Position numbers and translations under genes: made by a program. Under the pieces are notes generated by a model that worked only from the letters and a program-made list of their open reading frames with translations, was not told where the DNA came from and searched no databases. Positions 8,482-53,600 of a stretch of DNA of 64,000 bases are shown here, one piece after another (the first letter of the stretch is position 1; each line of letters opens with the position of its first letter). Origin of the DNA: Berberis thunbergii (taxonomy: Eukaryota; Streptophyta; Magnoliopsida; Ranunculales; Berberidaceae); contig QNQO01000223.1 in the NCBI GenBank assembly GCA_003290165.1, forward strand, positions 744,001 through 808,000, in the 5' to 3' direction.

Positions 8482-8528
8482 TGAAATTTAAATTAATTCA
8501 CAAAAGCTATAAATTAATACACATCATC

Positions 8529-19760: not shown

Positions 19761-19761
19761 T

Positions 19762-21541: not shown

Positions 21542-21714
21542 AAACACCAATATATAAGCATGAGCTTTCCAGTTTAGCAACTATGTTTGTAAAAATGCTG
21601 ATAGTTAACAAATTTGTGTAGTTCTGATACAAACAGGTACGGCCATGAGGTTTAAAATGAATTGGATTCATTGTGTACTTGCAAAATAGCCTCTAGGAAG
21701 TGTAGTTGCAGTAA

Positions 21715-23145
21715 GATGATATCATTCCATAATAGTTTTTCATCAAGGGGATCCGGTGACATAAAATGGAACACGGTATTTGAACATGAGAGAAAGAGAT
21801 TGCAGAGATGATATGCCACCCCACGCCTTTAAGAAGTCACCTTCTTCAAAACGTTTAAGCTATGGTGTAGATGGTGAATGATCAGAACTCAACATGTCTA
21901 TTTGCCCTTCCTGCAGTGATATGCCTTCAATAATGTGTTGCATCAATCTCCTTATGATCAAGTAGCATTACAGAATTGAAAATTTACCACTAAAGCATCC
22001 CATAGCTTTTCTTTATTGTCTGCATCTCAGATTGGTGGAGCGCACTTGAAACAAGTATACCATCTTGAATCTCTTATGCTGAAAAATGCTAAAAATGTGG
22101 ACATGCACTACGCCAAATTGGCATATTTTTAACAATTTAAAAAATAGTAACATTTTTTAGCTATTACAATCCACCAAACAATTTCAAGTCAAAACTAAAT
22201 TTAGTCAACAAAATGTAAAATAGCTACACCAAAAAGTGATACAATAAATTATATCACCATGAATACCATCACTTGTAAGCCCATATTATTTGTGGTGGTA
22301 CAATTATTGAATCACTTTGTTTGTGAAAATGTGTAAAATTGTTTTGTGGATTGTTATAGCTAAAAAATGTTACTATTTTTTGGATTGTTACAAAAATGTC
22401 AATTTAGTATAGTGATTCTTTGCTTCCTGCATGAAATTTATCAATTTTTAGGCATCTCACAATTAAATAGACCAATCCATATTTTGGTTTAGTTGGTATG
22501 AGTGAGACTGATAATGTTTGAATTGATACAAACTAGCTAGTATGCCAAATACTAATTCAGAATTACGCATTGTTACCTTGTGTAATTGTAATGATGCTCT
22601 TGCATGTTGCATCTGATATATGAACAACATGAAGATGACATCCTTCTAAAGAACCACCAATCCATGTGTCTTTTGTTACTTCTAGAAGCTCTCTATTGGC
22701 TACCTCTTCCCTAGCTCGCAACAAAAATTAAGAAAAAACAATATCAACAATCATGTAAGAGGAAATGAAATATGGAGCAAAGCAATCAGAGAATGCACTA
22801 AAATGTTTTCTATAGAAAATGGTAGGGCTTTGTGGCATTATAGAGAAGATGATAAAACCACAATAATTGTTAATATTTTCTACCCAGGAAACCCCGAAGC
22901 AGGAGTAATATCTTACCAAGAAGGAGGCCTAGTTCTAAGACGCGTTAGAGTAAGATTGAGCATCAATTGCACCATCCTCTGCTTCTAAAAGGCTTCTTGC
23001 ATTGTTGGTCAACAACATTGTTAAGTAATACAAAGCAAAACTAAAAATATAGATAATTAGAAGCTCCATTTAATTGAAAAAAATATCAACCAACCTTGAT
23101 ACGGCTTGCATCTGTCGTTGGAAAGTCATTAATCCCTGAAGGACA
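21715..23145 (-). pseudogene. ALN: Allantoinase gene fragment, several exons
   Basis: Allantoinase hydrolyses allantoin to allantoate in purine breakdown, in the endoplasmic reticulum of plants. Minus-strand exon pieces in order: SFMCPSGINDFPTTDASRIK (about 23150-23090); EAEDGAIDAQSYSNA then, after a frame change, RPPSW (about 23000-22910); EEVANRELLEVTKDTWIGG and HLHVVHISDA (22718-22615); CFKCAPPI then DADNKEKLWDAL (22080-21990); EEGDFLKAWGGISSLQ (about 21830-21785). These follow the order of the family and some are bounded by GT/AG sites. The N-terminal metal-binding part and C-terminus are missing, a TGA replaces Arg before DADN, and a MITE sits in an intron. It may be cargo of the CACTA end at 19762 or a dead local gene. 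Confidence 0.8.
22106..22414. mobile_element. CACTA-type MITE, 309 bp (copy 2)
   Basis: CACTACGCCAAATTGGCATA and CAATTTAGTATAGTG form the inverted ends. It lies between two exon remnants of the allantoinase pseudogene on the minus strand, thus in a former intron. Confidence 0.78.
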
Positions 23146-23740
23146 CATAAATGACTGGATAGAGAAAACAAAAAAGAAAAGAGTCACATAAAACCATGTT
23201 AACAATAACTAACAAAATAAATCTTGCATAAACTTTATTTATAATACCATCGGTCACAAGTCTACTAGCTGAGCTGCTAGTACCCCATTGGCAACAGATT
23301 CATAACAATGACAAAATTAGTTACAGGGCTAGGCATTGAGCAGCCTTGACGAATTCCTATTCTTGCTATCTCACATGTACTGATGTACATCACATCAATA
23401 CTTCCCAAAACTTTTTTTATATAATAAGGTGGCTAATTATTTTTTATTTATTTTTGCTAATTATCTGCTCCAGCAAGTTGAGGTGCTATAAGAGTTTGTA
23501 GACTTAAATCAAAACACCTATACCACATCTGATCTTACAAAAAAGTGGCATCAAACCAACCCAAGCATACTGAAGACATACATATGCCTTTTGATGCAAG
23601 CAAGAAAGGAAGCTTCAATCAATTTGATAAAGATGGACCACTTTGTGATTGTTCACTATTACTAATATATGTTATAATGGAACTTGTAGAGAGGGAAAAT
23701 TGAATTATATAGAAATTTCTTCACTGATTCTTATGCGGAG
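23146..23740. other. Non-coding; start of unit C homology
   Basis: From about 23380 the sequence matches 15290-15380 of unit B (for example AGGAAGCTTCAATCAATTTG near 23608). No gene seen. Confidence 0.45.
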
Positions 23741-24107
23741 CTCTGACGTGATTTCGAAGGGTATTCTGGGGATAGATTTAATTTTTTGATCCTTCAATCT
23801 TGGCCGTCCCAAGATTGTTGGAATCACCCCTAGCCATTGATCGTAGTGAAGAGCTCAAGCGCAACCTAGGTTTCTTCACCGTTTGGCAGGCGGAGACAGG
23901 CCTTTGTGCCGCCTTGGGGCGATCCAACACGACGACACGGTTCAGCCGTTTCTGCAACTTTTACATACAGCCGCAACTGCTGCTGTCGAGACACTGAGAG
24001 GACTGCGGATTTGCATGTTCTTTTTGCCAGTCACCACCAATACGCTTCATTGTTTGTTTTCATCTCTTTTTGGTTGACGCTGGTTGCAGGGCTAGATACG
24101 CCGTCCT

Positions 24108-26194
24108 TTGGATGCGATGTCGGCACCGCCGGCCACCATCCCTTTTTCCACGGCGGGGGGACCTGGTAATGGGGGAACGGGTAAACCCTCTTTCACCCAG
24201 ATTTTGGGTAAAATCTTGGTGGACGAAGTTGCGGAGGATCAGGTAGAAGGAACTCGTTTCTGCAAAGAGGGAGCGCCAACAATTGGACTTACGGCCACAG
24301 ATGAAGTACGTGGCGAAGCGTTCATGGAAAAATATGTGATTGTTCTGAAGTTCTCTAGCTATCGACCAACACTGAAAGATATCCGAGATTTGATTCACAG
24401 AACTTGGGGAATCCTAGGCGATTTTTTGGTTGGTTTACTGAATCAACGGCATGTGTTAGTTCGACTTCAATCGGAAGTGGAAGCCAAGAAAGTACTATCG
24501 AGAGACTCCTTTTTTATTCGTGGAGTTCGGTTCAAAGCCTTCCGTTGGCATGATGGTTTCAGTTTGAAGGAGGACCCGATATCGGTGCTGTTGTGGGTAG
24601 AGCTTCCTAACTTACCTTTGCATTTATTTCATCCTCCTATTTTAAAAGCAATTGTGAATTCTTTTGGTGGTTTCTTGCGGATGGATGATCATACTCGATG
24701 CCTATCGCGCCCGGGTTTTGCCCGTGTTTGCGTGGAGATGATTTGGCGGAGAAATTACCAACTAGAGTTTGGATTGACAGTGCTAATAATAGGGGCTTCT
24801 GGCAGAAGATAGATTATCCAGGCTTCAAATACTGTGATTTTTGCTCCTTGATAGGGCATCAGGAGGATTTTTGTAGAAAAAAGTTGGGCCTAACAGGCGA
24901 TGAGAGTGTTTCTGACCTAGGGAAAACAGCGAAGGCGGTCAAACCAAAAGTCGAAACCAATACTGTCAAGCAGCAATACATACCAGTTACCAAAAAATAA
25001 AAATTGCCCATCCGAGAAGTGGGTACGAGTGGTGTAAAAAATGACAAGGGTGCGGAGATTAACGAGGAAATTGGGGATAAGAGGCCAGTGGCCACTGCTC
25101 CGGCAACGGTGGTGTTGTCAAACAAATTTGAGTCACTTATAGAGAATTTCGATAAAGATGAGGGTGCTCAAGAGGATAAACAGCTAGTGGGCAAGACAAT
25201 GGCTCATGACAGTGCCGCAGTTGTACCAGAATCTATGGAGGATTGCCTCTTGGAGGTGGGGTATACAATTTCGGAGATTGAGAACGTTATTGGTCCACAA
25301 GCACAGTCATTGTTACAGGAGGATGTTGTCGACTCGGGGGACACCAACAATTTTCTAAGAATATTCTTGTGGCAGTGCCGCGAGACGCGACAAGCGATAC
25401 AGTGATGCATGTTGATTCAGGGAGGCCGAGCGATGCAACCTTCACAGCGGGGGCGTTGAAACGGTCTGATTTTCAGCCAGAACCGGTCTCGCAGCAGCCA
25501 GTGCTCTACCCTTCAGGAGGGGCCGTGACTTCCCCCCAACCAGCGACCTGCACCAAGACAGGGGCCATGGCCTCGCCCCAGCCAGGGCCCTGCACCAAGG
25601 CAGTGGACGTGGCATGCACCAATCCAGCGCCCTGCACCACACTAGAGAACATAGTCTCGCCCCAGCCAGCGCCCTGCACCAAGGCAGTGGACGTGGCCTC
25701 GCCTCAGTCTGCGCACTGCACCAAGACAGGGGTCGTGGCTTCGCCTCAGCCAGTGCCCTGCACCACATTTTTCGATGCTACTAGCACAGAGCTAGGGGAT
25801 GCTATGCAGGGTCAACACGTGCAGGAACCCTCGGATGATGAGTTCCAGTCTTTGCTCAGGTTAAAGAGACATTTTGACAAATACGTTATCAAAACTTCCC
25901 CGGATTATAAAAGAGTCTGAGACAACTTGAATAAGGCTATATCTTTGTTCAAAGAAAATAGGCGCGCTACTTCGACTGCCGAAATTGGATATCAGTACAC
26001 TCGAAAGTACTAGTGAGGATAGTGATGAAGTCAACTCAGAATCGGAGCTTGATCCACAGGCAACGAATAGTGATTTGGATTTAGGGGCTATGTCAGACGG
26101 AAATATGAATAAGAGGCGTCACACCAAATATATCAGCATTTGTCCCCGAAAATCCAATAGAACTAGGAAAGAAAACAAAAGGTACAAAAACTGA
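24108..26194 (+). pseudogene. LINE ORF1 (DUF4283 and zinc knuckle), frameshifted
   Basis: ORF1 protein binds LINE RNA. The start ATG at 24108 opens a frame with a DUF4283-like domain (residues about 70-200, with DIRDLIHRTWGILGDFLVGL and VRLQSEVEAKKVL), then PGFARVCVEM. A one-base deletion near 24740 shifts the frame; the continuation reads DLAEKLPTRVWIDSAN and a CCHC knuckle CDFCSLIGHQEDFC. A stop TAA at 24998 and another frame change near 25380 follow. The C-terminal part has six copies of a 14-residue repeat like ASPQPAPCTKAVDV, then an acidic tail ending KRYKN. Dead as it stands. Confidence 0.8.
25530..25770 (+). repeat. 42-bp minisatellite inside LINE ORF1
   Basis: Six units built around CCAGCGCCCTGCACCAAGGC encode a Pro/Cys/Thr-rich 14-residue repeat. 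All units keep the reading frame, so the expansion occurred while the frame was translated. Confidence 0.75.
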
Positions 26195-26348
26195 TTTTGT
26201 CTAGGCTTGTATTGGTGAATCCTATCTTTTGTGAGAGGTTGTTTCGACTTTTTAGTTAACTTAACCCTATTGGGTCAGTCATATAGCCTTCGGGCGTGGA
26301 TTTTTTTATATATGTTATAAAACTGAGTTATTTTAATAGTTTTTTTTA

Positions 26349-27199
26349 GGTTGTGTTTGGTTGCATGGAATCCTATGTCATGGGAATACATGAAGGGATC
26401 TCTATATTTTAGGCTAATTTGAGGTATAACTCCACCCACACTATTTGATTTTGTTATCAATCATGGGAATGAAAGTCTCATGAATATGAGAATCACATGC
26501 CTTGGGGGACCAAGGAGTGGGATTCTCATGTTCATGGGACTTCCATTCCCAGTAGGGCTGGGCAAGTCCAGGTAACCGGCCCAAAATGTAAAAATCGAAA
26601 ACCGGCCCGAGAAATTTAAGCCCGTGTTTATGAGACCCGAAATCGGACCGAGTTGACCGGTTAACCAAATTTTGGGTCGGTCTCGGTCGTAAGAGCAACA
26701 TTCAAATTGAAAAATTTTTAAAGTCCAAATTTCAGCCCAAATTGAATTTTATAAAGCTCAAATTTCAGAAAAACAGAGTCACAAATTTATAAAGTTCAGC
26801 CCAAATTTATAGAGTTCAGCCAAAATTGAATTTTATGTGTGCTTATAGTATTGCATGATACATTGATTTTAGGGTTTTTTACTTTTAACTATTTAATTTG
26901 GGCTGGGCCGGTTACCCAACGGGTTTCAGAAAGGGAAACCAAGGCCCGGACCAGAAACTTCGGGTCGGGCCGGGCTTTTACAACCGAAACTTTTATAATT
27001 AAAACCGATCCGAACCGACCCGATCAGCCTGATTGTCGGTTCGGTTCGGATTTTTGGTCCGAAATGCCCACCCCTTAATTCCGACCATTGATTACAAAAT
27101 CAAATGGTGGATGTGTTGTGTTATGTCAATTTAGCCTAAAATGTAGAGGTACTCTCATGAATTTCCATGGCATAAGATTCCTTGCAATCAAACACACCC
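26349..27199. mobile_element. Tourist (PIF/Harbinger) MITE with nested hAT
   Basis: The ends GGTTGTGTTTGGTTGCATGG and CAATCAAACACACCC are inverted and flanked by TTA (26346-26348 and 27200-27202), the PIF/Harbinger target. A hAT element at 26553-27077 splits it. The sister copy at 28198-28525 is uninterrupted. Confidence 0.82.
26553..27077. mobile_element. Non-autonomous hAT-type element, 525 bp
   Basis: The ends are TAGGGCTGGGCA and TGCCCACCCCTTA. The flanks ATTCCCAG (26545-26552) and ATTCCGAC (27078-27085) are an 8-bp duplication with two changes. The interior is rich in CCGGCCC and GGTTCGG words. Inserted into a Tourist MITE. Confidence 0.78.
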
Positions 27200-28197
27200 T
27201 TAATGTGATCCTCTTCGCTTTGAATTCATATGTACCGGCGGTATTTTGGTCATGCTTGATTTATGGTCAAATATACGAAGGTAGGTGCTTTGGTGATAAT
27301 TTGAGATGCATTATGATGTGTGTTGGTGTATTATGTTGGTAACTTTATTATGACGCTCTTTTCACTTGATTTCATCTAGAATGTGAACAAGTAAACAAGG
27401 ATTATTTTCGCACTCATCACAAACTAATTACAAAATTACTTGCTTTATGTCTCTAGTTGATTACAACTCTCTTTAAACTCATCGCAAACTTGTACAGAAA
27501 ATAATTTGGAAATTTTATTATTGTTTTGTTGTATATTTTTCTTGACTAAATATAAGCTTATATAAGCTAACTTTACCTAATTTTATGAAAATCGAAAACT
27601 TAAAATTTCCTATACAATATTCTAAGTGTCATATTTCTTATTCTGACTTTCCTATTTGTATTTTCATATTTTTGTACTGTCCTATTTTTATATTTTCCTT
27701 CTTACAATGTTAGACTTTGGTTTAGCTATGTTGAGTGCAAGCCCTACATATTCTAACAAAACTACTTTGAAGTTAAACTTTATACTCGCAACAACCTCCA
27801 TTGGTTTTTTCCTACAATTATTAACTACAACCAGCTTCTTATTGGATCCCCCAGTTACTGTCTTTTGCCTAACACCAGCCTCACCACCACCTTTGAAGAA
27901 AGCACCCTGATTTGTTGGGTGTACTTGAACTCGGACCTCCATTTCATGCATTCTTTATAGCTAGATTTAGTCATTCAAACTTATCCGTGCAACTTACAAA
28001 CACTGGCTGAAAGAAGTTTCTATTCAGGTCCTTCTCTATATATAGTAAATACTGAGCGCAAATTGTAGTGTGTACATGCCCCATAGATAAACTATAGTCG
28101 ATACTTATTATCAATAAATCATTACCAAGTAAGAGTAGATTTATGTTTTACAGCAAAATTTTCTTACAAGATCCTCCAAGCCATATTATGCACCTAA

Positions 28198-28525
28198 GGG
28201 TGTGTTTGGTTGCATGGAATCCTATGCCATGGAAATCCATGTGGGGACCACTACATTTTAGGCTAAATTAATATATCACTCCACATTTACCATTTGACCA
28301 CCATTTGATTTTATGATCAATGGTGGGAATGAAAATCCCATAAACATGAGAATCTCACTCCTTGGCCCCCCAAGGCATGTGATTCCCATGTTCATGGGAC
28401 TTTCATTCCCACCATATTGATCACAAAACCAAATGGTGGATGTGGAGTGATATATCAATTTAGCCTAAAATGTAGTGATCCCCTAATGAATTTCCATGGC
28501 ATAGGATTCCATGCAACCAAACACA
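28198..28525. mobile_element. Tourist (PIF/Harbinger) MITE
   Basis: GGGTGTGTTTGGTTGCATGG to CATGCAACCAAACACA are inverted ends, and the interior is palindromic around GGAATGAAAATCCCATAAAC. Unit B lacks it at the equivalent site near 16115. The left flank ends TAA; the right flank is not clear. Confidence 0.78.
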
Positions 28526-28616
28526 ACTGCAATGCACAATCCTATATGTATATATACTCATTGGGTTATAAACTTGTAATCATGATACACATATCTTAAC
28601 TCAAATTTAAATAAAA

Positions 28617-28645
28617 TATAATATATATATATATATATATATATA
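28617..28645. repeat. AT microsatellite
   Basis: A run of about thirteen AT dinucleotides just upstream (plus sense) of the minus-strand hairpin C-m. Confidence 0.9.
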
Positions 28646-28710
28646 AAGGATTCTTTAGATACAATCTGACCATCGAATGCCTATAGGGAGCAAGTCTAGC
28701 ATGAGTGATA

Positions 28711-28826
28711 AGAGTCAGTCAAGTTAGCCAAGGAAACTGCCTACGAATCGCATTAGGATATACAGTCTCTAGCTACAATCCCTCTACGGAATGTAGGCAA
28801 GTCATCCTTGGCTACCAAACAAGACC
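28711..28826 (-). ncRNA. MIR169: miR169 hairpin C-m
   Basis: The minus strand at 28794-28814 begins TAGCCAAGGATGACTTGCCT, an exact family match. The star GGCAGTTTCCTTGGCTAAC at 28723-28741 pairs with it. The loop is about 50 nt. This is the best preserved of the four minus-strand hairpins. Confidence 0.85.
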
Positions 28827-29574
28827 CTTTTATCTCCATGTAAGACCTCTCTTTCCTTTTGACACATTTTGCTCTATCACATGCACCAAACCTCCTTACT
28901 AGTGCATCTATACTTATAGATCTCTCCATCCACCCCTTGAACATGTAGGTGTCCATGACAAGGAATATGTTCTTGTGATACGATATGTATGACACGAGGT
29001 CAGCTTATACAGAGATGTTCATCTTCCTCTCGATGTTGCAAGTGGAGCTTGATAATTTGAAGAAGATACATAAAGAATGTCGATGAACAGAAAGCAAGAA
29101 TTCCCCTAAAGCTGTCTATTATTCTCCTTGGGGTAACCATTCACAGTACTTGTTGACAACTTGAGTTTTGAATAACTTCCATCAGTTTACCTTTTAACAT
29201 CTCAAAGGCTATATCCATCCATAAAAAGTTTCATGTCAACATGCAGAGATTTGATCATCTTTATGGATTGGTTTCAAGAACCCTGCTTTTTGTTTGTCTA
29301 TATGCAAGACCAAGTTTAAATATAAATGGGTGGGAAAAAATGTGTATGTACAGTTCATCCCTGCATCAGTAAAACAGACCAAAGAACAAGGATTCTTTTA
29401 ATGATTACCACATGACTCTTTGAACCAACCCTGATGCCTGAAGCTATTCTTTTCTTTATCATTAAATAATCAAAACAATAAAGAATGAGAAAAATAGTTT
29501 TGCAAGGTACCATATCCAACAGTACGGGTATTATGGGTCAAAAAATTTAGAATAAATGTATCACATGACATCAA

Positions 29575-30132
29575 TGAGTCATATGATCATACTCGTACAT
29601 GTGAATAGGTCAACCCTAATAAGAAAAGGGCATCAACACGGTCCCAAACGCATCGAAACTCAAATCATTGTTCAGCTCATAAATCAGGCGCCCAAGCTAA
29701 AATCACGACAGCTCACGTGGCACGGATCTTGGAGCTTAGCCTAGGATAATAAGGCTTGAACACGGATCTCTGAGCTACACAGGCCCGAGATCCCCCACAC
29801 AAATCAGTTCTCAACACAAATCAAGCATTGGATCCTAAACAGAGTCGGGTGCCGAAGAAAATGCACATGTAAGATTTTGGGCGAGATCTCCTCCGTCCAT
29901 CATGCCCTCGATAGCAAAGACAGTTGGAAAGGGAACACTCGCTACTTAAGGTGAGCAAGGGAAGAAGAAATGTACGCATACACATTGGTAATTTCATCTA
30001 GTCTTAATTCTTCCTTTCATCGTCGCCTGACTTAAGCAATGGAGAGCCTTCGGCCAACACAACGGTGGTCCTTGGCTCACCGTTGTTTATTTTGCAGATT
30101 CAAGATCAGCAAGGATGAATTTGGACGCATCA
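29575..30132. repeat. Solo LTR in unit C, about 558 bp
   Basis: TGAGTCATATGATC to TTTGGACGCATCA interrupts unit C relative to unit A, where the flanks are joined near 11770-11815. ACGGTGGTCCTTGGCTCACC near 30060 resembles the ACGGTGGTTCGTGGCTCACG stretch of the gypsy LTR near 46220, so it may belong to a related gypsy family. Its 3' end is shared with 12765-13296. Confidence 0.55.
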
Positions 30133-30353
30133 TGCATAAAGACGTGGAGAGAGCTGCATCAAGCATCGGTCGATAAATATGTATCACAAGAATATATTCC
30201 CTATCATCGCATCTAAAGGACCGAATCAAAGTGTGCTTGCAGAGATAAGAAACCCAAGTAAGGTAAAATTATAAGGAAATTTAATTAGGATACCAATATC
30301 ATCTTCAAGGGAAACTCAATCAAGATACCAATCTTATCTTTCAAAACACAAAT

Positions 30354-30363
30354 CTATAAATAC
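30354..30363 (+). promoter_or_regulatory. TATA box of MIR169 trio, unit C
   Basis: CTATAAATAC followed by AGGCTCTTGCATTGCAGAAC, same order and spacing as in units A and D. The first hairpin begins about 100 bp downstream. Confidence 0.58.
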
Positions 30364-30462
30364 AGGCTCTTGCATTGCAGAACTGGTGTAGAGTACTAGA
30401 GCAATATGTGATGAGAAAAAGAGGAAATGGGGGTCTTACATGAAGATGTAGAGTCATGTTGG

Positions 30463-30569
30463 GTAGCCAAGAATGACTAGCCTAATATCCACAAAAGGGT
30501 CTGGCCATGTACGGACTCAATGCCCTAATGTGGTTCATAGGCAGTCTGCTTGGCTAACCTGACTGTCTC
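30463..30569 (+). ncRNA. MIR169: miR169-like hairpin C-p1, two mature changes
   Basis: The 5' arm at 30474-30494 begins TAGCCAAGAATGACTAGCCT, two substitutions against the family core. The star at 30540-30558 is GGCAGTCTGCTTGGCTAAC. The hairpin fold is kept, so it may give a variant small RNA or be decaying. Confidence 0.55.
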
Positions 30570-30670
30570 TTAGTCATCATGCAAGACTGTCTTTTCTTTA
30601 ATTCCCAAAAGCCATAAGCAGGATCAATAATGCATGAAGATGGAATGAAGGTCTTACATGAAGATGAAGA

Positions 30671-30793
30671 GTCATGTTTGGTAGCCAAGGATGCCTTGCC
30701 TACATTCTGCAAAAGGGTCACACTCTCCCTTATGGCCTTTATTATGCCCCCGATGTGGTCACTAGGTAGTCTCCTTGGCTAATCTGACCCTCG
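30671..30793 (+). ncRNA. MIR169: miR169 hairpin C-p2, one mature change
   Basis: The 5' arm at 30682-30702 begins TAGCCAAGGATGCCTTGCCT (A to C at position 13). The 3' arm at 30765-30783 is GGTAGTCTCCTTGGCTAAT. Pairing remains good. Confidence 0.62.
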
Positions 30794-30893
30794 CTTATTC
30801 CTCATGCAAGGCTTTCTTTTCTTTCCTAAGAGCTATATAAATGCCGACCAACAATGAATGACGATGAAATGGGGATCTTACATGAAGATGAAG

Positions 30894-31002
30894 AGTTATT
30901 TTGGTAGCCAACGATGACTTGCCCATATTGTCAAAGGGGTCATCTCATCCAGGCCCTAATGCGGTTCATTGGCAGGATCTCCTTGGCTAACCTGGCTGAC
31001 TC
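30894..31002 (+). ncRNA. MIR169: miR169 hairpin C-p3, one mature change
   Basis: The 5' arm at 30905-30925 begins TAGCCAACGATGACTTGCCC (G to C at position 8, within the seed-like 5' half). The star at 30971-30991 is GGCAGGATCTCCTTGGCTAA. The change would create a mismatch with NF-YA sites. Confidence 0.62.
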
Positions 31003-31009
31003 TTTTCTC

Positions 31010-33030
31010 TCATGCTAGATCCTTGTTTCTCAGATCTATGTGCAGGGAAATGTATAAAACTTCTGAACAAGGTTTGAAAATTATGCATATCATAAATGCG
31101 AAAATACTAGAAAACCATCTCATCATAAATAACATTCCAAATAGTTAGGAGTGCAGTACCAATGAAACATGCCTTCATAGCAAAAATAGAGTACCTTCAT
31201 GAAATGTCAAACATGATCTCCATGTATAATTGATCCATGATATAGCAGAGACCTCATTGGTTTCGGATCCAAGGTACAAGTAGTCTCCTATTCTAGATTT
31301 ACAATATCTATCTAAAATCCTTATTAATTAATCTAAAATCTAAAACTGAGAGATTCAACAGATTCTGTTAAGGGGGAAACTGAAGTTAAGGGCTCGCATT
31401 GAATTAACAATTACCTAGATGACCGTCGGGTGATCATTGAAGGAACAAAAAGCCCCTATCGTGTCTAACATTTTTGGAACCACATGGCAGTATTTTTGCT
31501 GTTGAGGCCTTCTGAGAGCTGGTTTTGGAGCATCAATGGCATGAGTCTTTTACATTTTGTACCTCTTATAACACAGTAGTTAATGGCAACGTAATATATG
31601 TTTGTTGGACATCGCAGCCTTTATTTCAAACATCAACTGACTTCTACTATTAGCAGGACATTTATCTTTTACTCTATTATTAGTATATGGTAAGAATATG
31701 ATGTAGCAAACTGTTGCAGATGAAAGCCAGCCTTCAAAGCACGTTAATACAAGTACGAAATGTATTTTAAGAAGGCTTAACTAAAATCACAAATTTTGAT
31801 TTGACAATGATTTCTTTTCCAAACATACATATTAGTATATGATGCATGCATAGTAAAATGGACCGAATTTTGAGCTATCACGAGAAAATTATGACCAAAA
31901 CAGTAGTCCGATTTATGAATTTTAAGCCAGCTACTGAACATTAATTTCGTGTGTTCATACATCAGTTTAGAGTTTTCGAAACATCAAACAAATATTGCAC
32001 AACTTTATCATCTTTTTCAAAGAGATGTTTTTGTTTGAGCCTTCAAGTTTTGAATTAAGTTGTTTTTATGAATATTGCAAAACTACTGTATTGTCTCCTT
32101 TAGGCAACATTTTTTGAAGCCTAAGCAATGGAATTTCACTTAAAGATGTAAATCATATGGAATGTGTCATGATCACACGTCATTTAACATTTGAGTAGGG
32201 TCTATATATGTGCAAACCGACGTTGTTTCTTCCGCTTGGTTGCCTCAAAATAAGCGTGAAAAAGTTCCATTAGTCTTCAAGAATCAAGATAAATGACCGC
32301 ACAAAATATCAACCGATAAATAAAAGGGTGATTAAAAGCAATAATCAGACAAGCCAAGTTTCCCATACTAACAGTCACAAGTGCATTATGCATTAGGTCT
32401 GATATCCTTAGAGATGATCGCACAACATGAACGTGAGAACGTGGGAACAACCACTACTGGCGATCTTTCTCGATCTCCCTCACTGCCGACTACGGTTTAA
32501 CCCAAATTTCCTAAATAATTCCGGGGAGCCTGATGATCACTCTCCACCTCTTCAAAACCTGATCCACCACTTTTCCAGACCCTACCTCATACATCATCTT
32601 TGAACTGAGAAAAGTATGCATACAAACCAAACTGATTCAAGTTACTATAGCTAGCTAGTGTGATGATCCGGTCTCCAGAGCATTATAGATTACCTTTTGC
32701 TTTTTATTTATTGACATTTCATATATCTTCATTATCGCGTAAACCCCACCTGATATTATATTGTTCAGTCCAAGATGAATATATTCGTGACACAGCTGAC
32801 CGATTTAATTTCTTGGTGTGTTTTTGTTCTGTCATTGAAAACATTTCATTACTATTAATGGAAGTACGTGTACAACATACATGTTGGTCTATATATGAAT
32901 ATATTCCTCCCTTATGGGTGCCTAAAGGTTTTAAAACTCATGGGTCTACGAGGGGGGAAATTTAAGATAAGAATCCAATCTCTCTTGATGATAGATCATC
33001 TTGTCTATAAATGCATTATGCATTAGATGA
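31010..33030. other. End of unit C and repeat-rich spacer
   Basis: 31180-31560 pairs with 19000-19460 of unit B. From about 32676 onward the sequence is duplicated at 42356. No protein-coding gene seen. Confidence 0.45.
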
Positions 33031-33290
33031 CGCTACACTAAATTGACATTTTTGTAACAACACTCAAAACAGTATTACTATCACCACTAAGAGTATGGTT
33101 ATAAAAGTGATACTATTCATGGTGATCCAACTTATTGTATCATTTTTTTGTATTACTGTTTTTCATTTTTTTTACTAAATTTAGTTTTGACTTGAAATTA
33201 TTTTGTAAATTGTAAATCTCAAAAGTGATATTGTTTTGAGAGTTATTACAAAAGTGCTAATCTGGTGTAGGTGGGAGAACTTCTAAGGTG
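32676..33290. repeat. Duplicated segment (partner 42356-43010)
   Basis: CAGAGCATTATAGATTACC starts the match; both copies carry the same CACTA-type MITE at the same place, so the MITE was present before duplication. The two copies differ by small indels near 32880 and 42550. Confidence 0.8.
33031..33272. mobile_element. CACTA-type MITE (copy 3)
   Basis: CTACACTAAATTGACATTTT and AAGTGCTAATCTGGTGTAG are degraded forms of the family ends; the interior aligns with copy 1. Confidence 0.7.
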
Positions 33291-34310
33291 TGGTAAAGCA
33301 GCATGACTTGCCCACATTCTACAAAGCAGCATGAGATTTATATATCCTAAAAAAAAAAAAAAACTTGACTGCCTCTTATCTATCATGCTTGAACTAATTA
33401 TCACAGCTTTTAACCTAAACTTCCAAACAAGTTTTGAAAACTGACATTTCAACTGCCCCAAGTCCTAACTACTAGCATTTCAAACATTGAAACATGCATA
33501 TATATTGACATACGCATCCTTTTGAGTGTGTAATTATGGGGAGGTAAGTCTAAGATATGTCTGAATGGATACGCATGTGTATTCTTTTTAATTTAATTGT
33601 GATAAAACCCTTTACTCTAGTTAGAAAGGTATTTTGGTCATTCAAAAAATGATCTAAAATGTGATTAATTAATTGAAACTGTGAGTCTGAATAGCTAGCT
33701 CTAATTCTTGATTAAATGGAGATGCATCTCTAATTTGCTATTACTATTGGGAGACTTGTTACAACTGCCATAATATACAATAGCCAATTAAGTTGAGGAG
33801 CACTTGTCCCACAAGCTCCCCAAATGGAGTAAGTAATTGACAATTGAAGCAATAATATTAATAATTAATCATGTTTTTATCTACACTTAGTCATGGAACG
33901 CATGCATGCGTACGCCACAATTGAAGGGTTGATACATTATTTTTTTTTCTTTATTTTTTTTATTTTTTGTGTAATTTGTACAAAAGAATTATATTGTACA
34001 ATATTAACAAATGTTTTGAATTAACAAGAATTCATCTAAAAATTTTCATTAGCTTATATTACTAATCTGAAAATATAAAGTTCCTTTTGTTCGGAGTTTT
34101 ATTTTTCTCTTAAAATGGGTTAAAAAATATGTATGTAGTATTTTTTTTAATACAAACGAAATGGGGTAGAAAATGATAATACCAACAAAATGGCAATTTT
34201 GTAAATTAGTTTAGCCATTAAGCTTCTATGGCTTAAATGGCTCGAGTAAGGTTCATGGCTTAAATGGCTTGGCTAAAAATATTTTTTGTTTTATTATTCC
34301 ACTAACACTA
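33273..34310. other. AT-rich stretch without a gene
   Basis: No coding sequence. The last 70 bases (GGCTTAAATGGCTTGGCTAA and on) match 43009-43070, the flank of the related segment that lacks the cyclin-bearing element. Confidence 0.5.
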
Positions 34311-34318
34311 CTTTTATG

Positions 34319-35939
34319 TAGGGGTGGGCAAACGGGTCAAGGATCCGCGGGTTCAAACCGAACCGGACCGTTTTGCTCTAAACGGTCCGGATTTTAATTT
34401 TATGTTTTTAGATACAGTTCGGATAAGTCCGAATCCGTTATAAAATGGTCCGGTCCCGGTTCCTATTTTTTTAAAAAGAAACGGTTCGGGTTGGAACCGT
34501 TTCAAATCATATTTACTAAAAAAAAAAAAAAACTAAATATTGTAATTTAGGTTTCTCCCGAAAAAACCTAAAATCACATCGACATTGAGGCAGCAGATGG
34601 CGGTGGAGTCGACATCGACATCAACTCTAAGGGTTTTTAATGGTGTCTTTGTCTCGAGAAGAAGCAGCAACAGCGAGACCAAGACCTGTATCTCTATTTA
34701 CTTGAACAAGACCAGATTTTTGAAGACGAGGAGCTTGACAACTTGTTCACCAAAGAATAGAGCACCCATTACAACCCCACTAACCACCCATCTCTTGCTC
34801 TAGCTCGCAGAGAGGTTGTGGAGTGGATTCTAAGGGTCAATGCCCATTACTCCTTCTCAGCTCTCACTTCAGTTCTTGCTGTCAACTATCTTGATAGGTT
34901 CTTTACAACCTTCAATTTTCAGAAAGATAAGCCATGGATGACTCAACTGGCTTCTGTTGCTTGTCTCTCTTTAGCTGCCAAGGTTGAAAAAACCCAAGTT
35001 CCTCTTCTCTTAGACCTTCAAGTAAGTCTTTAAGAATCAGTAATCTACAATGGGTATTTGCTAAATTTGATATTTTCTTGAAGATTTATAATGGGTTTTG
35101 TTGTTTTAGGTGAAGGATGCGAAGTTTGTGTTCGAGGCGAAGACTATTCAAATAATGGAGCTTTTGGTGCTCTCTACTCTTGGATGGAGGATGAACCCAA
35201 TAACCCCTATTTCATTCATTGAGCACATAATCAGGAGGCTTGGATTGAAGAGTGACCTGCATTGGGATTTTCTAAGGAGGTGCGAACATCTCATTCTGTT
35301 AGTAATCTCAGGTATCTGTTCGATCTAATGCGAATACTAGTTCGATTTTTCGATCTTTGATTGGATTGTTAAAATGGGTATGTTTTGTTTCAGATTCAAG
35401 GTTTGTTGTCTATCTTCCATCTGTGTTGGCAACTGCAACAATTCTGCAAGTGATTGATCAAGTTGAGCTTGGTAATCCTGTTGAATATCAAAATCAGCTA
35501 ATGGACATTCTCAAAATCAGCAAGGTTTGTGATTTACGTCCTTTATTGGCTTTGATAATATTTGTTCAAGTAGATCAACATCGATGAATACACATGAAAT
35601 AAGATTTAATCGATTTGATATTGGCAGTAAATAAGTTGATTTTAATGATTTAATTGAGTATTTTCATCCAATTTTTGTGAATTGTGTTGCTATATTAGGT
35701 AAAACAAAATTTTCTGATTTTGTTTCTGGATTTGGTGTTCTTGTTGCAATTTTGTTGTACATTTTTCATTTTGGAACCGTTTGGAACCGTAGGAACCGGA
35801 CCGTTCCAAACGGTTCGAGTTAGGTTCGGTTCCAATGTTCAAAATAAGGGAATCCGGACCGGACCGGATCCGTTAAATTTAAACGGTCTGAGTTAGGTTC
35901 CTCAAAATTTGGAACCGATCCGGACCGTGCCCACCCCTA
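34319..35939 (+). mobile_element. Pack-type hAT element carrying cyclin D exons
   Basis: The ends are TAGGGGTGGGCA and TGCCCACCCCTA, identical to the element at 20820. The 8-bp flank CTTTTATG is perfect at 34311-34318 and 35940-35947. Outer parts (34345-34510 and 35775-35930) are the GGTTCCGGACCG-type filler typical of this family; the middle 1.1 kb is captured cyclin sequence with introns. No transposase, so it would move only with help from an autonomous hAT. Confidence 0.92.
34640..35524 (+). pseudogene. CYCD3: D3-type cyclin fragment (three exons) inside hAT
   Basis: D-type cyclins bind CDKA and drive G1/S. Exon 1 (to 35021) gives LYLLEQDQIFEDEELDNLF, then LARREVVEWILRVNAHYSF, LAVNYLDRFF and MTQLASVACLSLAAKVEKTQ, the N-terminal cyclin box. 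Exon 2 (35110-35311) gives FEAKTIQIMELLVLSTLGW and RRLGLKSDLHWDFLRRCEH. Exon 3 (35394-35524) gives DSRFVVYLPSVLATATIL. Introns 35022-35109 and 35312-35393 have GT...AG borders, so the copy was taken from DNA. A TAG at 34758-34760 stands where Gln is expected. The last exon is missing; the sequence goes straight from the 5' splice site at 35525 into partial intron, then filler. Upstream of the box, the frame is disturbed near 34650. Confidence 0.92.
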
Positions 35940-35972
35940 CTTTTATGGGTGATTCCACTAACACTACTTTTA

Positions 35973-36010
35973 TGAGTGATCCAACAATACGGCGGAAACT
36001 TTGGCCCTGT
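35973..36010 (+). pseudogene. LINE RNase H domain, part 1 (split by CACTA)
   Basis: The last bases before the CACTA encode NNTAETLALFEG when joined across the insertion to 40281, the start of the RNase H domain common at the C-terminus of plant L1-type LINE ORF2. The LINE is 5'-truncated here. Confidence 0.75.
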
Positions 36011-36514
36011 CACTACAAGAAAACAGTAATTTAGCGACGGTCGCCAAAGGTATACAGCGACGGTTATGACTGTCGCCAAATAATACAGCGACGCTTGGCC
36101 AACCGCCGCTAATAAAGGCGTCACTGGTCATTCAGCGACGGTTTTAAGCAACCGCTGGCATAACCGTCGCTATATACTATATAGCGACGGTTTAATGTAG
36201 CGACGTTTATAACCGTCGCTAAATACAATATAACGACGGTTATAAATCGTCGACAAAATTCGATGAACAATCCAATTTTTTGCCTTTTAGCGACGATTTG
36301 CAACCGTCGCTAAATTCCCTTTGATAATTCAAATTTTTTTACCATATAAAAATCACATTTTCAACCTAAACTAAACTCATATGATACCATCAATATCATA
36401 CATTAAGGGAAACTTTAATTTCATTTCAAAATCAATATTATACATGGTCCAGAAGAAAAATACAAATTAAAACTGTTACAAATTGTCAATGCTTACATCT
36501 AATAAAATTGTTAC

Positions 36515-37460
36515 AAATTTCCACAAGTTCCCAATGGAGTCCAAAAGCTTGCAAATTTGATGGCAGATATGGACTGTCCTGATGCACAATGCAGGTGAAC
36601 CTTAGGCCTATGAAGTGTCTCTGATTTACCGTAGCTTTCAATGTGCCAATTCTTCAAAGTTGGGATCCATTCAGCAACATCAGCACAGACACTGTGAACC
36701 GATCTTTTAACAAGTGTAATGCCGGAAGCATCCCCACCAATTTCCTCAAAAACTACCAAGAGATTATTTGTGGGCTTTAACCAAGCTCGAGGCACATGAT
36801 ACCTGAAAGTTTTCATTATTTCATATGTTAGAAAGACTTGGACACAAGTGAAATATACATTTTCCTCTTTTTTATTTAAAAAGTTGTTACCATCATTGGG
36901 TCGGCTTGCCACAACCCACTTGACACTTTGGAGGTCAGTATGTTCCAGCATAGTTACATTCGTTGCAGTCTCCATCAGCATAAGCTGTCCAATATCTTCC
37001 AATACTCTCTCCATTGATCCACACTTGACCCTTTCCCATGCTCCCCATGTCCAAAGCCAATGGCTCGTTCCCCTAAAAGGTGCATCAAAATGAGACTGCA
37101 AATTCAAGAATTAAAAACTTAACTTTTTCAGTATATAAAATTACACTAGATAGCTAGTTGTCTATGTTTCCCGGTTTTGTTACCTTAAACCATGTCAAAG
37201 GTTGCTGTTTCTGTGCAACTAATGACACATCCATCCATCTTGTAGATGACACCTCATTGGGAGACACAAGATTCATAGCTTCTCCTTTCAGGCCAATCTA
37301 TACAAAGCAACATCTATTAGACTAAATGTAGAAAAAATAACATGAAAAAAATGTGTAGGCGATAAGTGCATTTGAGCTCGAAGTACAAAATATCTGACCT
37401 GGTAAGACCATTTCTGATAGGACAGGTCCCTCTTTCCCTCTTTCAGACCATGGTTTGCTT
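36515..37460 (-). pseudogene. BGAL: Beta-galactosidase C-terminal exons in CACTA
   Basis: Plant beta-galactosidases (GH35) trim cell-wall galactans. Minus-strand exons: 37399-about 37460 (HGLKEGKRDLSYQKWSYQ); 37194-37297 (IGLKGEAMNLVSPNEV and QKQQPLTWFK); 36891-37095 ([20 protein letters not shown] then [20 protein letters not shown]); about 36515-36802 ([20 protein letters not shown], then [20 protein letters not shown] and [15 protein letters not shown]). These are the C-terminal sandwich and lectin-like tail; the catalytic half is absent. Exon 36891-37095 has a frameshift near its start and two TGA stops where Arg is expected. Splice borders are GT/AG. Confidence 0.9.
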
Positions 37461-37529
37461 AGGTGTAGAGGAAAGAAATTTGAGTTTCATAAACAAATTA
37501 GTATAAATGCTTCAAATGATTTCAGTTCA

Positions 37530-37665
37530 TGCACAGACAAATAATAGAGTAACAAGGAATAAAGTGTTGCTGGACCAAATTCAGGCATTAGGAGGCTTAC
37601 ACAGAAAAAAAAAAAAAAAAAAAACAGCATGAGCCACGCCATGACCAAGACCACCAGCTGCATAC
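37530..37665 (-). pseudogene. APH1: APH1 (gamma-secretase subunit) fragment in CACTA
   Basis: APH1 is a multi-pass membrane subunit of gamma-secretase. The minus strand reads AGGLGHGVAHAVF, a run of Phe codons (poly-T expansion at about 37606-37624), then SLLMPEFGPATLYS. This follows the plant APH1 stretch around the conserved GxxxHG..H region. Only about 40 residues remain. The poly-T run has inserted extra Phe codons. I recognised the family from memory, so I hold this below the neighbours. Confidence 0.6.
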
Positions 37666-37859
37666 ACAAATAAAAGTGGTGTAAGCAGGATGACATAGAA
37701 CAAGAAAATAAGTTAAGACACGAAGTTGCGTAACAGTGCTTTAAAATCTCTTTAGTCACCTTCCTTTTGTCCACTTTCGATGCATACATGCTGCATATGT
37801 GAAGAGCTTGAGAGATGGGACTCATCACTTAAATGCAAACAACTTATGATGCCATGAAT

Positions 37860-37935
37860 ATAATAACCTGACTCGAAGGTATAACCAATCACATAATTGG
37901 CATATCTAACGTCATCCAGTGAAGCTGCAGGCTGT
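37860..37935 (-). other. Exon-like stretch of unknown origin in CACTA
   Basis: The minus strand is open for LQPAASLDDVRYANYVIGYT followed by FES, in the same direction as the neighbouring fragments. I do not recognise the protein. It could be another exon of a captured gene or chance. Confidence 0.3.
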
Positions 37936-38473
37936 AGCCTTATTTTTATTTTTTAGCCTACATAAACCACTAGATTTAGCTCCCACCTAAAACTAAATGT
38001 CAACTCCAAAGGGCAGGTAGGTGGCATAAAAATTATGAATAATACAAAAGTAGACAACAAAAGATTATGAAGCAGTATATCAAATAGTTAGATTTTACTA
38101 GAAGAACATGCAATCAATCATGGTCCTTGAATATTTCAGCTCAAACAACCAGAGATTGCTATTCTGCTAAGAGAAGACAACCATGAGCACTTGTAGACTC
38201 TACTAATGAATGTCTGTTCCTGTTATATGGTAAAAGATATCCATACTAGCTGCTATATCAACAAAAGAAACAAGAGATTATAGATACAGAATACAGATGA
38301 GCTAGAAACATGCCGTGTCTAACCCAACAGAAGCTAGACTGCTAGCAGAATACAGTTACATGTAGTATCATATTAAGGTATTGTTGTCACTTACTATGCT
38401 AATTGCAGGGCCATCAGTTTAATAGTTGTACTCAACCCTTTTCTTATTACATATAAATCCATCTCAGCATATC

Positions 38474-39228
38474 TTAAATGTGTGTATACAAGAATAAATG
38501 TCTAATACAGTTTGTGAACTCTAGCCTGCAACCATTAAGGAAACCAATTGCCAAGATCACAAAGGGTGTCGACATACCAAATATGATGATATATGGTAAG
38601 GGTGTTGACATGGGGTTCTCCCCTTTCCTCTCGCCTGCTGTTTGCCAATACCTGCAGATGCCAGTCTCAATTAAGATTTCACTATGAACTGCTCATGGTA
38701 CTTAAGGTTAGATGATTAAATAAACCATTAGCTTTTATTTACTTCACTTTTATAGCATTCAATTTTGGTGAAACTATCATCAACCATTGGACATGAATAA
38801 TACTGTAAAATGATGAGCAGAAAGAAAATTCAAAGAAGAAGCTTACTGTTCAGGTTCTTGTTCTCTGGTAATGAATTTCTTCTTCCCTCCCTTGTTGACA
38901 TCTCCATCTCCCCCACCTACAAAATCCATCTCATTTATCATCATCTAAACCCTGATTATTTATTTATGGCTAATAAGCAACATTTTCATCAAGACCCATT
39001 ATAATAAAATTAAAAAATTAAAAAAATTAACAACTTAAAATGAAAGACAGAGAGCTTTTAAATCTTACCTATTTTTGCATGAACTTTAAAGCACTTGGAC
39101 ATTTTTCTAGGTGGAGAATGGAAGACACTGTAAGAAGGAAGAGCTTTTGATGATGATGATGATGATGATGCCAATGGATTTGGATGGAGAGAAGATGGAA
39201 TTATTGTTGTTGAAATTGAGATACTCAT
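38474..39228 (-). CDS. Small plastid membrane protein, captured, open frame
   Basis: Three exons: 39069-39228, 38847-38916 and 38474-38651, joined by introns with GT/AG borders; they total 408 nt, 136 codons including the stop, with no internal stop. The start is ATG at 39228. The N-terminus is Ser-rich and Thr-rich (MSISISTTIIPSSLHPNPLA, then a run of seven Ser), like a chloroplast transit peptide. Then GGKKKFITREQEPEQYWQTA, then a helix PLPYIIIFGMSTPFVILAIG. I recall the YWQTAGER...PLPYIIIFGM block from a conserved plant plastid protein of unknown role but cannot name it. The last 20 residues (after FLNGC) may be read-through into other sequence rather than the native tail. Located inside the CACTA; expression unknown. 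Confidence 0.65.
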
Positions 39229-39521
39229 CCTTGCCAAATTTTCTTCTTCTTCTCTTGTTGTCTCTTACCCTGTCCTTTATCCATTACATGTTTTTGATAT
39301 GGGTGGTCTATGACTTCCCACTGTACTAAACCCTATCTACTAAGGGGAAAATCAACAATTAGGGTCGAAATTAGCGAAAATCAACAACAACAACATCCGA
39401 TGAAAAGGGGAAATTGATGAGGTTTATAATTTGGGGAAATTAGGGTCGAAATTAACATATCAGTGACATTGTGAAGCTAATCTACGCAAAAATATTGTGA
39501 AAAAAAGGATTTAAGTCTTAC

Positions 39522-39900
39522 TTCATAGAAAGTGAGATCGATTAGGAGCTTTTTGGAGGCGTGAATGGTGGAAAGGGCACGATCGATGTTATCCGCCTTG
39601 ACCAAACCTACAACCTTGCAACGCAGAGCATCCTCATCGCCAGGTTTAGTAGCAAGAACTGTGAAAACAATCGAAAAGTTAGTAAAAACTTTCAAGAATT
39701 GAAGGATGGATAGAGAAGGAGAGGAGATAAAAAATAAAAATAAAAATAAAAAGTGACCTTGATCTGCAACTTTGACGGCTTGTTATTACTCGGATCTCTG
39801 AACATGGCGATTGAGATTAGTAAAGAGATCTTCGAGGGCAACGGGTTGAGTAGGTGTTGGTGAGGGTTGCGATCGATCAGGGGAGAGAAGGCCTGGGGAC
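39522..39900 (-). pseudogene. SRP72: SRP72 N-terminal exons in CACTA
   Basis: SRP72 is a TPR protein of the signal recognition particle that guides secretory proteins to the ER. Exon 1 (39758-about 39900) reads EDLFTNLNRHVQRSE, two stops, then QAVKVADQ. Exon 2 (39522-39658) reads KPGDEDALRCKVVGLVKADN and IDRALSTIHASKK. This is the first TPR part of the family. The intron 39659-39757 has GT/AG borders. The two TAA codons in exon 1 make it non-coding for SRP72. It is the 5'-most of the four captured pieces in minus-strand order. Confidence 0.85.
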
Positions 39901-40280
39901 GATCGAATGAGGAAGTGATGGTGGGTTCGATTAGGATCGTGGTGGTCTTTGCGATAATAGAAGCCGACAACTGTGGTGAGAGGTGGTGATACCGTGATCC
40001 CTGATTCTAGGGACCGTGATAGTGGTGGTGGATGAGCAGAGGGGGAGGGGATGATTGAGAGCAGAGATAGAGAAAAGGGATAGGGTTTTCACGGACGATT
40101 GAGTAAAAATAAATTGATTTTTATTTATAACGGTTTAACCGTCGCAATTATCTATACCGTCGGTAAACAATATTATTTCGCGACGGTGGAACAACAGTCG
40201 TTAAATAAAGTATTTAGCGGCGGTTTTGCACACATGTCGCTAAATAACTGCCGTTAAATTACCAATTTCTTGTAGTGTGT

Positions 40281-50600: not shown

Positions 50601-53600
50601 CCCCCCCCCCCCTCAAACTAAGTGTAGAACCATTAATAACACTTAGTTTTTCACGTAACAACAAAAATCTGGAAGTTCCAAGAGCTTTTGTAAAAATATC
50701 AGCAACTTGATCCACTGCAGAAATGTGAAGAACTCTAATGAGCCTGCGAGCAACCTTTTCACACACAAAATAGATGTCCAACTCAATATGTTTGGTCCTG
50801 GAATGAAGAACTGGATTGGCACTCAGCAAGACAACACTCATGTTATCACACCAGATAGTAGGAGGCGCACAACCAATCCTTAACTTAGAGAAAATAGATT
50901 TTAGCCATGACAACTTAGCCGTGACTGAAGCTAAACTTTTATATTCAGCCTCAATACTACTTATAGATACAATGCTTTGTTTCTTAGAGGACCATGAGAT
51001 GAGATTAGAGCCTAAATACACACAATAACCTGAAGTAGAACGCCTATCTGTTGGATTAGATGCCCAATCAGCATCACAATACCCTGTCAACTTGAGAGAA
51101 TGAGTAGGAACCAGGTGAAGTCCAAAAGTTGATGAACCCTTTAGGTACCTTAAGATCCTCTTAACCACTCACCAATGAGACTCAAAAGGGTTTTGCATGA
51201 ACTGACAAACCGTATTAACTGAGTATGCAATCTCAGGTCTGGTTATGGTGACATATTGTAAAGCTCCAACAATGCTCCTATACAACTGAACATTTTGGAC
51301 TGGATCACTCTCCGTGGCTAATAACTTCTCACCACCACTCATAGGAGTAGGCAAACCATTTGCAAATTGCATCTCGGCACGACAAAGAAGGTCATGAATG
51401 TACTTAGATTGAGACAGAAACAGTCCATCAGCAGTGTGTTAAACTTGAATTCCAAGAAAGTAATGAACCAATCCTAATTCTTTTAAAGAAAACAAAGCAT
51501 TTAGCTGAGATATCAACTGAGAAATGTCTGAAGAGCTTGAACCAGTGACTAAAATATCATCAACATACACCAAGATGAAGATAGGAGATGGCAAGTGTCT
51601 GATGAAAAGGGATGAATCTGACTTAGTTGTTGTAAATCCAAACCTGATAACAGTGTGCCTTAGCTTGTCAAACCAAGCTCCAGGAGCTTGTTTTAGACCA
51701 TAGATGGCTTTGGTAAGCTTGCAAACTGCATTGGGACGAGTTGGATCTGCAAACCCAGGAGGTTTCATCATGTAAACCTCTTCTTGTAAGTCCCCATTTA
51801 AGAAGGCATTGTTGACATCCAATTGAAACACTGACCACGAATATGTGACTTCAATAGAGAATATAACTCTGATTGTAGAAGGTTTAACCACAGGACTGAA
51901 AGTCTCTTCATAATCAAAGCCATCAATTTGTTGAAAGCCCCTAGTTACTAAGCGCGCTTTATACTTCTGAATTTTCTTTGACCTTGAAGATCCATTTACA
52001 ACCAACAATACTTCTATTATGTAGAAGATCCACCGGAGACCAAGTCTTATTGCATAGCAGAGCCATATATTCATCTTGCATAGTAGAGAGCCAATGAGGA
52101 GTGGTTAAAGCCTCATTCAGGCTAGATGGTTCAGTAGAAGCCATGAAAACCTTAGGTTTGTATATACCAGCTTTAGACCTCGTCACCATCTGATGTCCAG
52201 AGAAAAGTGTAGTAGGTATAACTGGACACTGTAAAGAGACCACTGGACTGGAAGGTACATTGGTGGGAAGCAATGTAAGATGGTCGGTTTGATTAGGAAA
52301 AGAAGCCAATGGGCTAGAAGGTGAATGACTATCACTAGATGACAAAGACTTATGAGACAAAGGGGTCTTATTGGCAATAGTACTTTGTAGTATTGGAGTA
52401 GTTGGTTTTGCAGTATTAACAGTAGATGTGGCAGAAAGTGGGATGGATGCAGGTGTAGAATCAAGAAATAGAAAAGTAGACTTGAGATAAGAAGGACGCA
52501 ACACTTGATGTGGAAATGAACTCTCATTGAACACCATATCTCTAGAGATGTATATACGACCAGTAGGGGACAAACATTTATACCCTTTGTGTTGTATACT
52601 ATAACCAAGAAAAATACATTCAACAAATATATTGAAGCTTATGGGTATTATATGGTCTGATATTGGCAAAACAAGAGCAACCAAACACCTTGAGGGTACT
52701 GTAATCTGGAGCTTTGTGATAAAAAGTTTCAAAAGGAGAGAGACCTTTCAAAACAAAAGAAGGAACTATGTTAAGTAGGTAAACTGAAGTTCTAACTGCT
52801 TCATCCCAGAATTTTAAAGGAAGAGAAGCATGAGCAAGAAGAGTAAGAGCAGACTCAATTATATGTCGATGTTTCCTCTCAGCAACACCATTTTGTTGAT
52901 GAGTTGTTGGACAAGCCAAACGATGAAGAACGCCATTTTGAGCTAAAAAGTTTGAGAAAGATCTGTATTCTCCACCCTAGTCAGATTGAACACACTTAAT
53001 AGGAAGACCAAATTCCAGTTCTACCTGTGACTTAAACTTGAGAAAAGTAGGAAAAACATCTGATTTATTTTGTAAGAGATATACCCAAGTGAATCTACTG
53101 TAAGCATCAATGAAATGAATGTAATATTTGTAACTAGAAGAAGACACAGTAGACGCAGGTCCCCACAAGTTTGTATGAATGAGTTCTAATTGTGTGTTGT
53201 ACACAGTTGATGAACTGAAAAATGGAAATCTATATATCTTTCCTAAACAACATGAAGAACAAAAGACAAAGTCATCTTTGTTTGAAACAGAAATTTTACA
53301 TTTACTAAAAATCTTATGAATAAGTGTCAATGATGGATGTCCCAATCGAGCATGCCAGAGATACAAGGATGAGAAGCATTTGTAGAAGTTGTATTGACTA
53401 ATTTTCTTGAATTGGAATAAGAAGAAGTTAACCCTGGAATGACTGAATCAGCAAGAGGTGTAGATGAAAAAACGTATAGACCATTGCTAAGTGTTCCTTC
53501 CAATAGAATCTGATTGGTGACCTGATCCTTAACAAAGCAAACATTAGGATGAAACTCAAAAAAGACACCATTATATTTTGCAAATTTTGACACACTTAAA

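Follow-up and report, generated by a model that had tools for sequence, protein, structure and literature searches.

Modular cargo assembly and prevailing same-sense gene fragments in a Pack-CACTA element of Berberis thunbergii

A 4,267-bp CACTA element that holds fragments of four unrelated host genes in a single orientation lies at positions 36011-40277 of a 64,000-nt stretch of the Berberis thunbergii assembly GCA_003290165.1 (2.24 Gb; contig QNQO01000223.1, hereafter C223, positions 744001-808000, hereafter the window). Its cargo was assembled stepwise and in modules, and the four fragments were not acquired together. The explanation that we judge best, and probable, is a modular Pack-CACTA in which hybrids form between neighbouring copies and the cargo reads mostly from right to left. 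Exon-shuffling transposons have been proposed to give rise to new genes, a process of which normally only the end products are visible. Here one plant genome offers candidate donors, sister elements of different cargo and an empty site, so that capture, decay and amplification can be ordered.

Modular structure of the element and its sisters

On the minus strand, the cargo reads from right to left as pieces of SRP72, a small transmembrane protein (putatively plastidial), APH1 and beta-galactosidase (BGAL). A query of the assembly with BGAL gave 68 candidate places, of which the best 40 were scored. Merging by 5′ flank reduced these 40 rows to 24 loci: the donor gene and at least 23 distinct insertions with the BGAL fragment. 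The sister elements form nested classes: the left part is common, divergence sets in at fixed breakpoints and different DNA follows rightward. Sisters sharing the left part and BGAL differ in their right ends and in the gene pieces carried, and the extra segment of longer sisters (about 0.6-1.4 kb) is partly the upstream sequence of the putative plastid protein gene. Likeness among copies is 88-99% in the left terminal part and about 96-99% in BGAL, and copies of the window element's subfamily are about 1-1.5% apart. The right ends are more divergent, with five types recognised by eye among eight complete elements and 75-88% likeness between types, a pattern expected from hybrids of two copies.

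The eight complete elements carry perfect target-site duplications (TSDs): TGT for the window element, AGA for L017, ACA for L027x, AAT for L041, GCA for L029x, CGA for L019x, CTT for L036x and ATA for L010x. This census covers insertions whose right end was reached and found. Sister right ends were accepted only with both the terminal motif and the right-end subterminal sequence, and all such sisters (7/7) had a perfect TSD; the duplication of an eighth sister, L044x, is imperfect (CCT/CTT, 2/3 bases alike). Right-end motif matches lacking the subterminal sequence (L029x 507, L036x 4662, L044x 3436, L013x 5992 and L043 4656) were not accepted as ends.

In the mechanism that we propose, each step would produce a hybrid composed of the left part of one copy, the intervening chromosomal DNA and the right end of a neighbouring copy. 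After terminal deletions, the hybrid would be mobilised as one unit, presumably in trans by a CACTA transposase, the Pack-CACTA itself being non-autonomous. A model of hybrids between two neighbouring copies is that of Catoni et al. 2019, as given in the available parts of PMC8903248 and PMC13317346, and the comparison of copies suggests that such hybrids also formed here. A new right end, supplied by a copy upstream of a gene, would bring in most of the new cargo and so give the right-to-left sense; this entry through the right end we suggest more cautiously, because copies were sampled mostly through the left module. The same sampling lowers our confidence both in the overall explanation and in directional capture.

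The termini, CACTACAAG...CTTGTAGTG, are terminal inverted repeats (TIRs) with a CACTA start, and their 31-nt arms are 81% complementary. They are bordered by a 3-bp TSD (TGT/TGT), so that the clean, TGT-flanked ends described in the original prediction, a reading of the window by a model from the letters, are found as described. The subterminal AGCGACGGTT repeats are asymmetric (about 300 bp on the left vs about 170 bp on the right), and the left ones bear this motif in direct and inverted orientation at about 36034-36316. No TNPD-type transposase (PF02992) was recognised by eye inside the window element. The genome yielded 7,809 candidate PF02992 matches; the best 150 were scored, all were above the cut-off and none was linked to the element's ends. 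Similarly, inspection by eye of three interiors adjoining related right ends recognised captured genes and no transposase. With host gene sequence between its TIRs, a non-autonomous make-up, and the copy number and empty site of a mobile element, the window element is a Pack-CACTA, an already known kind, as had been predicted.

The empty site was found with the joined flanks (175 nt), which match C223:855699-855873 at 175/175 nt (100%) and C6817:65369-65543 at 99% over the whole 175 nt. These were the 2 full-length matches among 40 scored rows. The 38 partial ones were mostly LINE-like (long interspersed nuclear element) copies starting from position 29-31, and one was the window's right flank. 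Joining the flanks restores an open LINE-like reverse-transcriptase/RNase H frame, as judged by eye. Thus the exact site, which the original prediction had looked for in relatives, is present elsewhere in the same assembly. The C223 empty site shares its contig with the element, about 71 kb downstream, a location that suggests either a segmental duplication or a haplotype left uncollapsed within the contig.

All four gene labels of the original prediction, and their minus strand, held. The BGAL fragment matches PDB 3w5f (E 2.3e-59) and also PF21467, and the SRP72 fragment PDB 5wrv (6.3e-6). APH1 was identified by PF06105 (8.7e-6, 25.7 bits vs a cut-off of 25.6) with a query peptide bridged across the frame break. 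The small transmembrane protein is conserved in plants (320 homologues, best E 1.2e-37), the plastid label remaining putative. GT/AG introns had been predicted in all four fragments. They are present in three, including 37183-37096 and 36890-36803 in BGAL and 39068-38917 and 38846-38652 in the putative plastid protein gene, but the single APH1 exon, which has an AG acceptor, ends without a GT donor. The introns are real, but the splice coordinates first proposed for them (39758/39658, 39069/38916, 38847/38651, 37194/37095 and 36891/36802) were slightly off.

Orientation of captured genes

The original prediction had read the shared sense of the four fragments as selection for one chimeric transcript or as a mechanism favouring it. 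A mechanism favouring one sense is distinct from selection for one transcript, and we favour the former. The window element alone gives no support for a directional claim, since 4/4 fragments in one direction has a chance probability of p=0.125, but the bias extends beyond it. Six-frame translations were inspected by eye for recognisable genes, whose identities were then confirmed by tools; NEK-like pieces, segments without identity and retrotransposon-like peptides were omitted from the count. In elements with both ends seen, 13/14 captured genes lie on the minus strand (two-sided binomial p=0.0018), and 16/17 do so among all tool-identified genes, which represent 17 different donor families (two-sided binomial p=0.00027; Table 1). 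When genes sitting together were merged, the 12 events split 11 to 1 (p=0.006). As the window's four genes prompted the direction idea, a fair test omits them: 12/13 are then minus (p=0.003), and 9/10 in the strict set (p=0.02). The Ras/Rab, B3-type and ARL2 pieces, which came from right-end queries, are also minus, and SRP72, eL27 and Rab each have their 5′ part adjoining the right end.

Table 1. Features of the window element (window coordinates) and genes captured in it and in related elements. Strand is relative to the element's left-to-right direction; - means reading right to left.
Feature	Position or element	Strand	Remarks
Left TSD, TGT	36008-36010	.	
Left terminal region	36011-36514	.	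CACTACAAG TIR and subterminal repeats; BGAL donor homology begins only at 36515
BGAL fragment	36515-37453	-	3′ part of gene; galactose-binding domain and start of C-terminal lectin-like domain
APH1 segment	37450-38526	-	Single exon 37657 to about 37560; poly-T tract breaks frame in window copy
Plant small transmembrane (putative plastid) protein gene	38529-39345	-	Start codon about 39228; without last codons; frame open by eye
Short junction	39346-39367	.	Place of the extra segment in longer sister elements
SRP72 5′ fragment, exons 1 and 2	39368-39868	-	Intron 39757-39659 (GT-AG); start codon lost; TAATAA in exon 1
Right terminal region	39864-40277	.	Subterminal repeats about 170 bp and TIR; module common to older SRP72-bearing element L062
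Right TSD, TGT	40278-40280	.	
BGAL, APH1, putative plastid protein, SRP72	Window element	- each	Both ends seen
Ataxin-2-type SM domain	L027x, L029x	-	Both ends seen
eL27	L041	-	Both ends seen; L27e below its cut-off, KOW above
NAL1 and patatin-like 6/7	L019x	- each	Both ends seen
TRM7-type methyltransferase and CDK	L010x	- each	Both ends seen
RecQ/WRN-like	L036x	-	Both ends seen
Amino-acid transporter and DnaJ	L044x	- each	Both ends seen
HSP70	L029x; start present in L036x and L043 too (single capture)	+	Both ends seen
ARL2	L066	-	Right module, left end not seen
Ras/Rab	L067, L068	-	Right modules, left end not seen
B3/auxin-response-factor-like	L069	-	Right module, left end not seen; match below cut-off

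These counts lead us to propose, tentatively, that capture by this CACTA lineage is directional: it would take place mostly at the right end, the gene would point away from it, and successive captures would give same-sense exon-intron cassettes regardless of coding value. If the bias is genome-wide, CACTA exon shuffling favours spliceable cassettes without selection for protein. No published orientation rule for CACTA cargo was found in the literature searched, most subscription papers lying outside its reach.

The bias could instead reflect no directional rule at all, chance having been inflated by non-independent captures, by the prompting genes and by the sampling of copies. All sampled elements share a left or right module with the window element or a sister, and identities were seen by eye before tools were applied. 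Moreover, omission of the prompting genes together with merging of neighbours leaves 7/8 events (p=0.07). We nevertheless regard this reading as improbable, given the agreement of 12 of the 13 new genes, the number of donor families and the inspection of both strands for the window element and the sister element segments.

Alternatively, capture may be random in direction and same-sense cargo kept by selection at the RNA level, elements with antisense pieces being lost because the antisense RNA from these pieces would target essential donor genes, or because the pieces would block read-through splicing. The sense shared by 16 of the 17 genes and the GT/AG introns retained in the window element agree with this view, as does soybean Tgm-Express1, whose captured CACTA fragments are spliced cassette exons (PMC1947982, available text). 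The subfamily copies are nonetheless so little apart that retained splice sites tell little, and we consider this alternative unlikely.

Several observations weigh against the preferred explanation, hybrid formation with mostly right-to-left cargo. No neighbouring pair was caught during hybrid formation among the copies examined, and the merged test without the prompting genes falls to the 7/8 given above. HSP70 is a single capture in the opposite direction, and the right-terminal CDK and RecQ pieces are internal exons and not gene 5′ ends. With BGAL as the query, the common left module is partly given by the construction of the sample. SRP72-type right modules, found with an SRP72 query of the assembly (145 candidates, best 40 scored), also occur at places where no left part was seen, and replacement may run from both ends. 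Members L028x, L013x, L063 and L065 hold segments without assigned identity; no identity was found for L027x 2395-2932, the L063 and L065 interiors and much of L028x and L013x. Finally, the analysis turned up no autonomous partner bearing these ends, from which the 5′ end of the element could be read.

Decay of the reading frames and donor genes

Decay was counted over alignment rows, which include allelic pairs. The window BGAL fragment contains two TGA stops and a +2 frameshift. The first stop is present in 38/38 element rows (37 TGA, 1 TAA) and 0/2 donor rows, and the second likewise in 38/38 and 0/2, while the +2 insertion marks 18/18 rows of the window element's subfamily and 0/22 other rows, donor rows included. 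The APH1 poly-T tract, at which the window copy is out of frame, ranges from about 10 to 23 among 26 rows, and some APH1 copies may thus be in frame. The two stops of TAATAA in SRP72 are found in 4/4 rows. The putative plastid piece is the sole open frame of the four in the window element; a 1-nt deletion by its start occurs in 1/16 rows.

Three of the four frames (BGAL, APH1 and SRP72) are therefore broken, a point absent from the original prediction, and no intact reading frame runs across the fragments. Selection for a chimeric protein or a chimeric functional transcript would account for the shared orientation of the fragments and for the open frame and own start codon of the putative plastid piece. 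However, the BGAL stops and frameshift are common to copies, SRP72 has two stops and lacks its start codon, the APH1 tract varies in length between copies, and sister elements, assembled stepwise, differ in gene content. Such selection, the first option of the original prediction, appears highly improbable. Most captured pieces are decaying and produce no selected protein, although element or read-through transcripts may still include them as spliced sense exons.

The BGAL, plastid-protein and SRP72 genes are lesion-free in the exons seen. A BGAL gene without TIRs and without the lesions (L046/L047, on C8179/C511), whose match starts at window 36515, is the likely BGAL donor. Similarly, the plastid-protein gene on C9347 (L058; 97% alike, open to the last codon by eye) is the likely donor of that piece. 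The plastid protein gene has a further, damaged copy (L057, C2799:79034-80733), which is 98% alike and whose match to the element stops at the same element bases as that of the donor. For SRP72, an intact gene, in the two exons seen, lies on C10676 (L061; 83% alike). Of two further copies, L062 (90% alike) is older, sits in an element with a right TIR and combines intact EYEQ codons with a stop at codon 4, and in L059 (94% alike) the TAATAA site already holds two stops. One-step capture of a natural gene cluster, which the original prediction had asked to be checked through adjacent donors, was rejected, as the likely BGAL and plastid-protein donors and the intact SRP72 gene, three of the four genes concerned, are on separate contigs.

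An intact APH1 gene was not found. At L060 (C11249:63275-65875) and two more such places, sequence 94-96% alike to the element's APH1 segment contains an insertion of about 300 bp; L060 carries APH1 and is at most a candidate donor. Exons beside APH1 in L060, and on the minus strand in L027x, we take to be NEK-like; a homologue search with them was empty and they were left uncounted.

Related systems and neighbouring sequences

Helitrons are rolling-circle elements without TIRs or TSDs, unlike the window element. Those of maize build up gene fragments stepwise, as seen here (PMC3288121; this and the following comparisons refer to the available parts of the sources). The closest described case is Tgm-Express1 of soybean (Zabala and Vodkin 2007; PMC1947982), likewise a CACTA element with unrelated gene pieces (five there) that have introns, all marked introns being GT/AG. 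A single transcript contains its pieces as spliced cassette exons, which suggests that they lie in one sense; an open frame over one piece is listed in a minus frame. In contrast to the window element, which sits in LINE-like sequence, Tgm-Express1 sits in a host intron and its transcripts start from the host promoter. Directional capture, if general, would account for all its fragments joining one spliced transcript.

Pack-CACTA elements of Arabidopsis and Pack-TYPE elements share CACTACAA TIRs, a TSD and captured coding DNA from several loci (PMC8903248). Nearby Pack-TYPE copies tend towards the same orientation; cargo orientation relative to the element, examined here across the family, is not stated in the available part of that account. 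The Tpn1 family of Ipomoea nil, also CACTA, keeps its ends and has its interior replaced by host genic regions, as here, and some members are transcribed as chimeras, cargo orientation again not being stated in the part available (PMC5105172).

Outside the element in L044x (L044+L053), at about 7695-8511, a 272-aa open frame resembles a plant virus movement protein by eye. In the window, another left end of the element's CACTA family (19762-19945, 81-85% alike) is preceded by CTT; of four right-end-like motifs (≤3 mismatches) found in 19700-36000, none has CTT after it. Retrotransposon domains, DUF4283 and RVT_2 among them, occur in open frames at window positions 24108-24812, 51439-52732, 53624-54253 and 61403-62047.

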